From Mediterranea sp. (in: CFB group bacteria) (GTDB taxonomy: Bacteria > Bacteroidota > Bacteroidia > Bacteroidales > Bacteroidaceae), in assembly GCA_031261805.1 (NCBI GenBank), contig JAISIX010000133.1, positions 1 through 39,044 on the forward strand: DNA of 39,044 nt, given 5' to 3'. The position numbers were made by a program, and so were the translations under genes. This document shows, piece by piece, positions 24,306-28,431 of the stretch. Every line of letters starts with the position of its first letter. The stretch's first letter is position 1. The notes below the pieces were generated by a model that was given only the letters and a program-made list of their open reading frames with translations, was not told the DNA's origin and did no database searches.

Positions 24306-27300
24306 TTAAAAACTTATCTGTGCGCCCAACATAAACTGACGAGTAGAAGGATAATACTTGTTGCTTCCGTTAAATGTGCTGGGAGTCAGTCCGTTGACAG
24401 GGTATTGCGCAGGGTCTATTCCACTAAATCCAGTAATGGTAAATAAGTTGCGAGCTGTGGCATATACTCTAACTCTGTCCAGCCATTTATTCTTTGGAAG
24501 ATTCAACGTGTAACCCAAACTGCACATATCCAGTTTCACGTAGTCTCCTTTTTCTATAAAATAATCGATATTACAATTATCCGCATTTGTCAATGCGGCA
24601 TTTTTCGTGTACGATTTCATCATCGTATTATAACTGGCATTGACCCGCTGCAAAGCAAAATACATATCATGTATATTGTATATGTCGAAGCCAAAAGCTC
24701 CAGTAAAGAACAAAGTAAGGTCGAAGTTCTTATAAGTGAACACGTTGTTCCATGAGGCTGTTACCCAAGGGAGACCATTGCCTGTTACGGCCTTGTCAGA
24801 TGTTGTTGCATTGCTTATTGGAATCACCTCATTATCTTTGTTATATACAAGCCAATTGCCGGTGTCGTCTACTCCAGCGTATCTATAAGTAAAGAAGTTA
24901 CCAACCCTCTGCCCCTCTTGAATACGTACCAATTGCCCCGGAGAGCCTGGGTTGGACATGGAACACAAGTCGTAATAGCTTTGTCCATGAAATATCTGGT
25001 TAGAGAAGTGGAGAAATTTGTTATTGTCAGTAGCCCCTACTAAGGTGGTAGTCCAACTGAAGTCTTTGGTGCGTATGGCATCATAGGTCAGTTGAAACTC
25101 GAAGCCTGTATTGCGCATCGTTCCTACATTGGCATAGATGGTGCCCCAAAGATATGGAGGTGTCGATACGTCATAGTCACCTAACAAATCTTGTTGTTTG
25201 CGACTGTAATAGTTGAAACTGCCGGATAGCTTTCCAAACAAAGCGAAATCAATGCCTATGTTCCAGTTAACCCCCTTCTCCCATTTCAAATTGGGGTTTG
25301 GGTTGATGTTTGGTCCCCATCCAGTGTACCATTTACCTTTGTAATAAATGCCACTATAACTCCCATAGGTAGGAAGCGATTTGTAAGGAGAAAAATCTTG
25401 ATTGCCTGTCATACCAAAGTCTGCACGAATCTTCAAGTCGTTAATCCATTTAACCCCTTTCAGAAAAGGTTCGTCACTGATGCGCCACCCTGCGGATATA
25501 GCAGGGAAATAGCCCCATTTGTGATTGGCTCCAAATTTGGATGACCCTTCATAACGCAAAGATGCTGTCATCAGATAACGTTTTTGATAATCGTATGTTA
25601 CACGTCCAAAGAATGCGATTAATTTGGAACTATTACGCCATGACCCCATTTCGTTCATGCCTTCTTCTTTGGCATATTCTCCGGAGTTTAAGTTGTCCCA
25701 AGTCAAGGCATCCGACGCAAAGTCCTTATTATTGGCATTGAATCCGTAGTTCATAAACTGCTGATAGGAATACCCTCCCAAGAACCCAAAGTTATGCCCA
25801 TTCTTTTCTAATCCATAATTAACCGTCCATTCTAAGGATTCATCCCGCTCTTTAGTCAACTTCTGCGAGGCTTCCCCGTCTTTGTCTGAACCTTGTGCGA
25901 TTTCTTCCGTGTTCCACGATGGCTTGAACGTATAGTAATGGTCGTTATTGAGTTTTTGCCCAATGGTGACTTGAGTGCTTAACCGATGCCCCTCAAGCCT
26001 GCCTTTCGAGAGGAGTGGCAACAGGTTTAACTTTGCTGTAAAGTCCCAATCCACATTCAAGTATTCATGATAATCCTTGGCGGTTTTCAATCGTTCAACA
26101 GGATTGAACATGTCATCGCCGGAGAACCAAGTATATTTCTGTCCCATGGGGTCAGAGGCATCTTTTATAGGCATCGTTGGGTTGGCTCTCAGCGCTTGTT
26201 TGAAAGCATCCACATCTGTAGAATTGGCCTTGATGACACGTGGTGTGACATTCCCCGAGAACTTAAACAGTCCACTGCGCGTGGTATGGTCGAAGCCGAT
26301 GCGAGTCCCATAATCCAAACGAGTAGAACGCAAATCAATTCCTTTCGCATCACGGATATCCGTGGTTACGCGGTAGCTACTGTTTTCATTGCCTCCCGCC
26401 ACGCTAATGCTATGCGTTTGGGTATATCCCACGCGGGTTATTTCTTTGAACCAATCCGTATTGGATCCATAATCGGTGCTCAAGCCAGTATCTACCCTAT
26501 ATTTGCGAAATTCATCGGCATTGAGAACTTCCAATTCGCGTTCAGGCAAATTAATGGCGATGGTACCATTGTATTCTGTATGTACTTTGCCATCTTTGGT
26601 GCCACGTTTGGTCGTTACAAGCACTACGCCGTTACTACCACGAGTGCCATAGATTGCAGAGGCTGCACCGTCCTTCAACACGTCGATGGAGGCGATGTCG
26701 TTGGGATTAACGCTGTCAAGATTGCCGCCCGGTACGCCATCAATTACAATCAAAGGGCCTAAGCCGGCGTTACGAGAGGAGATTCCTCGGATTTGGATAC
26801 TGGCGTTGTTGTTGGGGTCACCCATCTGCGTGTTGTTGATGGATACGCCCGGAATCTTGCCCTGTATCTGCATGGCGGGGTCGTGTGAGTTGGACTGCAG
26901 GAAGTCTTTCTCCCCCACGTGTCCGATGGCGGAGGTCAGCTCTTTCTTGTCCATCGTGCCGTAGCCGATGACGACTACCTCGTTGAGCTTCTGCACATCC
27001 TCTCGCAGGGAGATGTTGAGCGTTTGTCGCCCGTTAACGGCTACCTCCTGCGTGGTGTAGCCGATGTACGACACCACTAAGGTGCCTTTGGTGTTGGTCA
27101 GGATGCTGAAGTTGCCATCAATGTCGGTGATGACTCCTTGGTCGGTGCCTTTGGCGGCGATGCTGGCGCCGATGACAGGCTCGCCCGAAGAGGCGTCCTT
27201 GACTGTACCTTTCACCGTGGCTTGTTGCGCCGTGGCCGTCGGTATTCCTACCGTAAAAAGAAAAACTGCTGTGAGCAAAAGAAATACTTTTCTTTTCGTC

Positions 27301-27320
27301 GTTTTGAAGAGTGAATTCAT
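24306..27320 (-). CDS. SusC/RagA family TonB-dependent glycan transporter (PUL 1)
   Basis: The 1004-residue outer-membrane protein imports glycan fragments using energy from TonB. It has a signal peptide (KVFLLLTAVFLFTVGIPTAT, cut near AQQ) and a carboxypeptidase-regulatory-like domain (VKGTVKDASSGEPVIGASIA). A TonB-box region follows in the stretch around LNEVVVIGYG, then a plug with PGVSINNTQ, GLGPLIVIDGVPGG and the SusC signature GAASAIYGTRGSNGVVLVTT. The barrel ends in MLGAQISF with the terminal Phe. The first 230 or so codons have the GC content of the neighbourhood and the rest drop to about 43%. It is the first gene of PUL 1, with susD 13 bases downstream. No sigma/anti-sigma or hybrid sensor gene is in view. 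Confidence 0.95.
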   Translation of the reverse strand: MNSLFKTTKRKVFLLLTAVFLFTVGIPTATAQQATVKGTVKDASSGEPVIGASIAAKGTDQGVITDIDGNFSILTNTKGTLVVSYIGYTTQEVAVNGRQTLNISLREDVQKLNEVVVIGYGTMDKKELTSAIGHVGEKDFLQSNSHDPAMQIQGKIPGVSINNTQMGDPNNNASIQIRGISSRNAGLGPLIVIDGVPGGNLDSVNPNDIASIDVLKDGAASAIYGTRGSNGVVLVTTKRGTKDGKVHTEYNGTIAINLPERELEVLNADEFRKYRVDTGLSTDYGSNTDWFKEITRVGYTQTHSISVAGGNENSSYRVTTDIRDAKGIDLRSTRLDYGTRIGFDHTTRSGLFKFSGNVTPRVIKANSTDVDAFKQALRANPTMPIKDASDPMGQKYTWFSGDDMFNPVERLKTAKDYHEYLNVDWDFTAKLNLLPLLSKGRLEGHRLSTQVTIGQKLNNDHYYTFKPSWNTEEIAQGSDKDGEASQKLTKERDESLEWTVNYGLEKNGHNFGFLGGYSYQQFMNYGFNANNKDFASDALTWDNLNSGEYAKEEGMNEMGSWRNSSKLIAFFGRVTYDYQKRYLMTASLRYEGSSKFGANHKWGYFPAISAGWRISDEPFLKGVKWINDLKIRADFGMTGNQDFSPYKSLPTYGSYSGIYYKGKWYTGWGPNINPNPNLKWEKGVNWNIGIDFALFGKLSGSFNYYSRKQQDLLGDYDVSTPPYLWGTIYANVGTMRNTGFEFQLTYDAIRTKDFSWTTTLVGATDNNKFLHFSNQIFHGQSYYDLCSMSNPGSPGQLVRIQEGQRVGNFFTYRYAGVDDTGNWLVYNKDNEVIPISNATTSDKAVTGNGLPWVTASWNNVFTYKNFDLTLFFTGAFGFDIYNIHDMYFALQRVNASYNTMMKSYTKNAALTNADNCNIDYFIEKGDYVKLDMCSLGYTLNLPKNKWLDRVRVYATARNLFTITGFSGIDPAQYPVNGLTPSTFNGSNKYYPSTRQFMLGAQISF

Positions 27321-27518: not shown

Positions 27519-27555
27519 ATCCCGAGCAACGTATGAAATATACTGTACTCGGGAT
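27519..27555. repeat. hairpin next to the giant palindrome
   Basis: ATCCCGAG (27519-27526) and CTCGGGAT (27548-27555) are perfect 8-bp inverted repeats separated by 21 bases. It lies between the PUL 1 promoter and the large palindrome, and its right half belongs to the outermost symmetric block of that palindrome. Confidence 0.6.
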
Positions 27556-28303
27556 GGTTTTGTGCAATCTGGTTCGCTGATAAATTGGAGGTTATGTTAG
27601 TGATTAGCGGTGAGGGATGAGTGATTAGCGGTTAGTGATTAGCCGCCGCAGTCAGCACCCCGTTAGGGGTGACCGTTTCATAGCCCGGCAGCTTGCTGCC
27701 GGGTTCCATGGGGTGTGTACGGTGCGCCTCCGTAGGTTGCGCACAACCGGTGTGTGCATTGGGCGGTGGCCTGAAAGGCCCAAGGTGGCTGAAAGCCTTT
27801 GTCCGAAGGACTCTTATCCCAGCCCAACGCAAAGTGAGGAACGAACGACGCGTTGGGTTAACGTCATATTGTCCCTGCGTAGTCGCCCTTTTAAGGGCAG
27901 CTTAACTACCTGACATTAAGCTGCCCTTAAAAGGGCGATTTGGCACATACCCCAACCAAAACCCAACGCGTCGTTCGTTCCTCACTTTGCGTTGGGCTGG
28001 GATAAGAGTCCTTCGGACAAAGGCTTTCAGCCACCTTGGGCCTTTCAGGCCACCACCCAATGCACACACTGGTTGTGCGCAACCTACGGAGGCGCACCGT
28101 ACACACCCCATGGAACCCAGCAGCAAGCTGCCGGGCTATGAAACTGTCACCCCTAACGGGGTGCTGATTACGGAGGCTAATCGCTCATCACTAACGTAAT
28201 CTCCAATTTGTTGCACTTCCTCGCCCCCCATTCTTCATTCCTAATTCTTCATTTCCCCTAACCGCTAATTTATCAGCAAACCTAACCAGCACAAAACCAT
28301 CCC
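27551..28303. repeat. giant imperfect inverted repeat, non-coding
   Basis: The core is two 223-bp arms (27637-27859 and 27960-28182) that are reverse complements at 216 of 223 positions without indels. Between them sits a 23-bp perfect stem (27883-27905 with 27916-27938) around a 10-base loop. Outside the arms the symmetry continues in pieces: AAATTGGAG (27582-27590) with CTCCAATTT (28201-28209), GCTGATAAATT (27576-27586) with its complement at 28267-28277, and GGGATGGTTTTGTGC (27551-27565) with 28289-28303. Each arm contains smaller hairpins, such as CACCCC-GTTA-GGGGTG and CCCGGCAGC-TT-GCTGCCGGG. The left flank also has repeats of TGATTAGCGG. Short open frames in both arms encode the same peptide because the arms are copies. 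I take them as non-coding. It resembles a REP- or MITE-like element and carries no transposase. Confidence 0.9.
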
Positions 28304-28306
28304 AAT

Positions 28307-28366
28307 TACCCCCTTGCGCACGCAAAGCCCGATGAGTACAGGGTTGTAGAGGTGCGTAAGGGGGTA
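28307..28366. repeat. hairpin with 15-bp stem
   Basis: TACCCCCTTGCGCAC (28307-28321) pairs with GTGCGTAAGGGGGTA (28352-28366) at 14 of 15 positions, the exception being a G-T wobble. The loop is 30 bases. It lies directly outside the symmetric region of the giant palindrome. Confidence 0.6.
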
Positions 28367-28431
28367 TTGCACAAACTCCCAGGTAAGTCTCTTAGCTTGG
28401 GGCAAGATAGATTCTTTCTGTCGATATAGCA

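Follow-up and report, generated by a model that had tools for sequence, protein, structure and literature searches.

The window, a 39,044-nucleotide stretch of DNA from Mediterranea sp., carries a minus-strand SusC-like gene (24306-27320), beyond which lies a SusD gene. A palindromic element (approximately 27541-28304) begins some 220 bp before the start codon of susC, on its upstream side, and lies downstream of small genes, one of them an acetyltransferase gene. Two 223-bp arms (27637-27859; 27960-28182) are complementary at 216 of 223 positions with no indel, five of the seven differences being C/T or G/A transitions, and enclose a perfect 23-bp stem (27883-27905 / 27916-27938) with a loop of 10 bases (27906-27915). 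The palindrome described in the first-pass annotation is therefore real and its coordinates were correct, but they were too narrow. Arm pairing lengthens to 235 nt at 95% (27625-28194), outer blocks also pair (27582-27614/28177-28209, 27571-27594/28259-28282 and 27545-27565/28289-28309), and with small indels included the outward pairing reaches 27545-28309, the terminal repeat of the shell starting at 27541. In shuffled versions of the region (n = 20), adjacent 223-bp arms paired at 36% at most. Folding of the core (27766-28053) as single-stranded DNA gave -164 kcal/mol, compared with -40 (sd 4) in shuffled sequence (n = 200; z = -31). The parts of the element are as follows, where R1 is the arm model described below.

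27539-27540, no strand: TA dinucleotide at the left end of shell A; TA precedes 25 of the 29 shell-A ends in the fetched stretches.
27541-27642, plus strand: left part of shell A, comprising the terminal repeat TACTGTACTCGGGATGGTTTTGTGC and an inner part up to GATTAG; a repeat of this genome, its ends compared.
27643-27767, plus strand: layer 2, left, common to other shell-A copies, with hairpins CACCCCGTTAGGGGTG (27656-27671) and CCCGGCAGCTTGCTGCCGGG (27684-27703).
27768-27815, plus strand: P3 region of the left core arm, partly within the R1 match 27783-27906, with hairpins GGCCTGAAAGGCC (27768-27780) and GGCTGAAAGCC (27787-27797) and a third small hairpin.
27821-27857, plus strand: P2 hairpin of the left arm (R1 match).
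27858-27883, plus strand: junction stretch of type T1, from junction comparison among copies.
27884-27905, plus strand: P1, the REP-like half-site CGCCCTTTTAAGGGCAGCTTAA, with 54 sites in the genome.
27906-27915, no strand: 10-base centre, where other copies hold a transposase gene (compare contigs C203 and, in genome G005, C73).
27916-27937, minus strand: inverted copy of P1, from the half-site search.
27938-27961, minus strand: junction stretch of type T2, from junction comparison among copies.
27962-27998, minus strand: P2 hairpin of the right arm (R1 match 27915-28036, minus strand).
28004-28051, minus strand: P3 region of the right core arm.
28052-28176, minus strand: layer 2, right, complementary to 27643-27767.
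28177-28304, minus strand: right part of shell A, its outermost bases missing or replaced (CCATCCCA at 28297-28304, without the TACAGTA end).
28305-28382, no strand: separate hairpin repeat adjoining the damaged right end, with an identical junction in C14, L229 and L236.

The hairpin repeat at 28305-28382 (ACCCCCTTGCGCACG ... GTGCGTAAGGGGGT), directly beside the damaged right end of shell A, was without a match in the plasmid collection.

The site upstream of susC and the very stable fold would suit a source of long structured RNA acting on the susC operon. Rfam detected only two tRNAs in the window and nothing within the element, the family extends over many contigs, and its hairpins co-occur with their reverse complements, all of which makes a role as RNA very improbable.

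The element belongs to a dispersed family. Within its own genome (268 contigs, 83.5% complete) the left arm gave at least 65 matches (40 of the 83 candidates scored), and the 22-base central half-site P1 was found at 54 sites with up to three mismatches, 27 on each strand, against none for the reversed-pattern control. P1 sites in the fetched stretches form 23 gene-less inverted pairs and eight singles, one of which lies beside a transposase gene. The copy count proposed in the first-pass annotation thus returned a high-copy family, with 54 half-sites and 23 gene-less centres. The palindrome had no match in plasmid and phage collections. Many copies, spread over many contigs, run to contig ends, and the family accounts for contig breaks of this assembly. 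Such copies, those with two T1 or two T2 junctions included, are also what an assembly artefact would leave behind; as palindromes of the same build occur in independent assemblies, one of which (G021) is a single contig, an artefact has almost no likelihood. Absence of SbcD was considered as the cause of palindrome stability and rejected, since an SbcD gene without stops is present (G000:C174:14705-15487) in this genome full of long palindromes; a match to SbcD over the cut-off was obtained in 30 of 60 same-genus genomes. This genome, with its SbcD homologue, offers naturally occurring palindromes several hundred bases long.

The stretch between P2 and P1 comes in two kinds, T1 and T2. Where both junctions could be read (21 copies, by eye), 19 copies have one T1 and one T2, and the two exceptions (C199a and C123, T1/T1 or T2/T2) both run off contig ends. 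Both gene flanks thus seem to have been retained in the copies; duplicating and inverting a single flank would not give this result, and the inverted duplication offered earlier as an explanation is a poor fit. Inverted duplication at this site, or hairpin-primed repair acting repeatedly, would account for the close likeness of the window's arms (216/223) by making the palindrome in place, but at least 23 dispersed pairs, the preservation of one T1 and one T2, and the detection of the arms by R1, a model built from other taxa, render it exceedingly improbable. Nor is gene conversion, one of the options raised earlier, needed in general to keep the arms alike: sister arms were 92.8% alike against 91.4% after re-pairing (11 loci), and a value equally high was reached in 1942 of 20000 permutations, so that general conversion between sisters is not supported, although the window's own sister arms share an identical 91-bp core arm. 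The outer modules are not strictly paired, B standing opposite C in eight loci, B on both sides in C181 (at a contig end) and A with B in C247, and the centre is oriented one way relative to B and C in five cases and the other way in three, which may be due to inversion or misassembly. No empty site for the core was found; locus L120 was considered as such and rejected, as part of an arm remains and it is read as a deletion.

The earlier statement that there is no transposase holds within the window, but elsewhere in the genome one PF01797 (Y1/HUH) gene, with an in-frame stop, was found on contig C203 at the centre of a copy, which answers the search proposed earlier for a paired IS200/Y1-type transposase. 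On its 3' side the gene joins an arm P2 - T2 - P1 precisely at the centre position of the palindromes, and on its 5' side the contig stops after the first ten letters of the inverted P1. In another species of the genus (G005), an intact gene on C73 is located between inverted arms of 115 nt that are 93% complementary.

The transposases are of about 150 aa and contain [DN]HxH, WQ and Y...Q..HH motifs. A profile of 38 relatives matched the IS608 and ISDra2 TnpA chains in the PDB, while phmmer with a single Y1 protein retrieved no PDB chain. The predicted fold (mean pLDDT 89) matched the IS608 and ISDra2 TnpA structures, with a weaker match to REP-bound TnpA (4er8). By profile and fold, these IS200/IS605 enzymes are the closest solved relatives, and the present elements differ from IS200/IS605 in the long inverted arms that flank the gene on each side. 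Against the NCBIfam IS200 model (cut-off 55), used as a mark of IS200/IS605 subclass 1.1, the G005 protein scored 44.9 bits, the piece from the window's genome 39.8 and the G031 protein 64.8, the cut-off being missed by four of the five Y...Q..HH proteins or pieces scanned. Genes with Y...Q..HH are of low copy number, one in the window's genome and one to three in six relatives. The transposases are assigned, by motif only, to TnpA_Y1 subclass 1.2, which they resemble in DH[IV]H, WQ, Y...Q..HH, length (about 150 aa), low copy number and occurrence in Bacteroidetes (PMC6006769). That 2018 paper describes subclass 1.2 as low-copy, generally without IS200-like end structures, and enters 'no' in the REP column; here, in contrast, a conserved arm and gene-less copies were found. 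Its automatic REP search demanded a GTAG or GTGG foot, which may be why the hairpins went unreported.

At least 567 stretches encode relatives of the transposase, from which the 80 best loci were selected. These loci have the same order of hairpins on either side of the gene, pointing inward, namely P3, P2, about 22 nt and P1. Within 250 bp of the gene, the exact hairpin GCCCTGAAAGGGC is present upstream in 35 of 78 flanks (controls 1.25 kb away, 1 of 71) and downstream in 40 of 76 (controls, 0 of 66), and the median folding z values of the flanks were -2.4 and -2.2 compared with -0.4 and 0.0 in controls. In a simple flank alignment of 79 of the 80 loci (the remaining one was short of upstream DNA), 21 beat 99% of a cross-paired control; as hairpins common to different loci inflate this control, the P1-hairpin counts and R1 were used instead. 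R1 is a covariance model built from 22 arms, from 16 loci, picked by eye among the 53 arms that hold the exact P1, and includes nothing from the window's genome. Compensatory changes were seen in 10 of its 16 pairs, all in P2 and P3, P1 being invariant by selection of the 22 arms.

In the 39-kb window, R1 found the two arms of the palindrome, both over the full length of the model: its best match was 27915-28036 on the minus strand (25.4 bits, E 0.0007) and its second 27783-27906 on the plus strand (22.7 bits, E 0.003), the next match having E 2.2, with E-values that are rough owing to the calibration. Seven further copies in the same genome were matched in both arms at 15.6-26 bits. The transposase copy of this genome (L031, L062) gave no R1 match at E up to 1, the G005 gene copy was matched on one arm only, and three same-genus Y1 loci without Y...Q..HH (L105, L109, L110) gave none. 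In the 64 loci outside the training set, 180 of 207 matches lay no more than 500 bp from the gene. By their nearest matches within 200 bp, 31 loci point inward on both sides and 21 inward on one side with the other empty; nine loci were outward or mixed, and three had no match in that range. Near the genes there were also 16 gene-less inward R1 pairs, whose arms are 13-27 bp apart in L160, L168 and L187. These pairs were outnumbered by outward-facing neighbours (47), because arms also occur in tandem. In L169, L181, L187 and L193 a single Y1 gene is surrounded by several tandem R1 arms, an arrangement like that of REPIN clusters.

The genus was searched with R1 in 60 genomes under strict filters, with 65 candidates scored per genome. 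Five or more matches were found in eight genomes (G005, 9; G006, at least 65; G018, 25; G021, 10; G031, 37; G069, 12; G071, at least 65; G080, 18), and the window's own genome had none at E up to 0.01 in this strict search. A Y...Q..HH gene was present in six of the eight R1-rich genomes and in one of the 52 others, the window's own (p = 4e-6). For G021 and G080, with R1 palindromes yet no Y...Q..HH gene found, the families may be orphans, or the transposase may have been lost or missed. Among the 150 of 255 matches listed, 43 inward gene-less pairs had gaps of 3-16 bp, with no outward or same-direction pair within 60 bp; by the same measure, the gap between the window's arms is 9. Copies examined by eye in G021, G071 and G006 form palindromes some 210 bp long, flanked by more inverted sequence, and inspection by eye of the G005 palindromes for target duplications gave one doubtful case (L115) and no clear one. 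Nine named isolates, picked for carrying the gene, all had R1 matches (3 to 75), most in Marinilabilia salmonicolor (L150, 75 matches); subclass 1.2 proteins are encoded there and in Bacteroides xylanisolvens XB1A (L202). The hairpin arms of the palindrome are similar to those standing next to this little-known transposase family in many Bacteroidota.

In the window's genome the core occurs in at least two different outer contexts, here called shells. The first kind ends in GGCTGTAGTTAAAGATAGCGTTGCAAA (33 sites). Three of its eight two-ended elements are flanked by 8-bp target duplications (8/8, 7/8 and 7/8 identity), and the other five, with only 2 to 4 of 8, are not; in the window copy the damaged right end leaves no readable duplication. 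No other length from 2 to 12 equalled 8, and 56 cross pairings reached 6 of 8 at most. Shell A, the shell of the window copy, has outer 94 bases that form a separate repeat; it begins TACTGTACTCGGG after TA in 25 of 29 ends, and a query of 27520-27720 gave at least 49 matches in this genome (40 of the 124 candidates scored). In L238, shell A is inserted into a first-kind element at GACC|TA|AGAG, a site uninterrupted in L124 and L128. As it is nearly empty in L222 (159 bp) and holds other palindromic contents in L220, L221 and L228, shells and cores evidently combine. The palindromic repeat family inside shell A in these last three loci is CCGTACACGATTCTGACACGG ... TCCTCCTCTCCCGCGGAGGGGAGG. In L238 another palindromic family (GAGGCTGTATCATAAGTC ... 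GACTTATGATACAGCCTC) is inserted in the left arm of shell A.

MITEs of the TA-target and 8-bp-target kinds have terminal inverted repeats and target marks, hold no gene and occur in many copies. Terminal inverted repeats are present in both shells described here; in contrast to MITEs, two unrelated shells carry the same palindromic Y1-derived core. An ordinary DDE-type MITE, in which the terminal-repeat transposases alone move everything and the core is passive cargo derived once from a Y1 element, would be consistent with the 8-bp duplications and TA flanks, which are features of the shells, and with the other contents of shell A, or none, in L220, L221 and L222. Against it, the identical core resides in two different shells of one genome, gene-less pairs with other surroundings are plentiful in G006, G018, G021, G031, G071 and G080, and searches for DDE_3 and IS1595 revealed no DDE partner in the incomplete (83.5%) genome of the window. 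We consider this explanation unlikely, though not negligible.

It is instead probable that the palindrome is a two-level non-autonomous element, a Y1-derived REPIN-like core nested in a MITE-like shell, whose movement is inferred. The first-pass suggestion of a non-autonomous REP- or MITE-like element agrees with this reading, as core and shell are REP-like and MITE-like respectively and one copy has a Y1 gene at its centre. The core (27768-28051) would consist of the two inverted P3-P2-P1 flanks of a subclass 1.2 Y1/HUH element, with the gene between them replaced by the 10-base centre. In line with the proposal for REPINs (PMC3116915), the hairpins in single-stranded DNA would be recognised by a Y1 enzyme supplied in trans, which would then mobilise or copy the gene-less unit. 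Another transposase, of DDE type, could have spread the surrounding MITE-like shell, with its terminal inverted repeats beside TA, together with the core; the order of nesting is likewise inferred. How contents come to lie at the centre of a shell may be answered by insertion at a hairpin tip, and some IS are stated to target REP sequences (PMC1525189). The window copy may be static at present, since the right end of shell A is damaged, with a truncated terminal repeat, and the single Y1 gene detected in the incomplete genome is defective.

The core resembles the REPIN/RAYT system (TnpA_REP class 2; PMC3116915) in having inverted hairpin half-sites round a short centre, many copies, and a low-copy Y1 transposase gene accompanied by the same half-sites. 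It differs in that each arm has three hairpins and the palindrome measures 200-290 bp, where a REPIN is a REP pair, in the transposase motif (Y...Q..HH rather than the Y...NP of RAYT) and in the hairpin foot, for which there is no general GTAG or GTGG. P1 is preceded by GTAG at its T1 junction but not at its T2 junction, and the P1, P2 and P3 hairpins of other taxa have no constant GTAG foot (by eye). The element would function in the manner of a REPIN, with inverted half-site pairs, yet two marks of REPIN/RAYT membership, the GTAG foot and Y...NP, are absent. TIRtrons and their TIRYT proteins (PMC3733652) are similar in that inverted repeats flank a Y1 gene and recur elsewhere in the genome; TIRYT proteins are mostly of subclass 2.1 with GGGGWSAS repeats (PMC6006769), in contrast to the subclass 1.2 motifs and P3-P2-P1 arm found here. 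The open-access literature searched contained no paper on such repeats with subclass 1.2 enzymes, nor on REPINs in Bacteroides.

More tentatively, and as a possibility rather than an expectation, subclass 1.2 Y1 transposases could drive an undescribed REPIN-type system distributed across the Bacteroidota, in which a 200-290 bp palindrome of three-hairpin arms moves, palindromic elements nest at each other's centres, and unrelated DDE-type MITEs and an HUH element together build onion-like palindromes that persist in an SbcD-encoding genome. On the main reading, REPIN-like systems would extend to Bacteroidota with a different hairpin grammar, and an orphan transposase subclass, published without an associated repeat, gains a conserved DNA partner that can be tested in vitro.

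A 22-bp minisatellite (CGTTGGGACTTTCTTCCCAAGG) in 5-6 copies was also observed beside shell-A elements and palindromes (L225, 630-769; L077, 800-917), and we take it to resemble the BrickBuilt repeats of Porphyromonas gingivalis.
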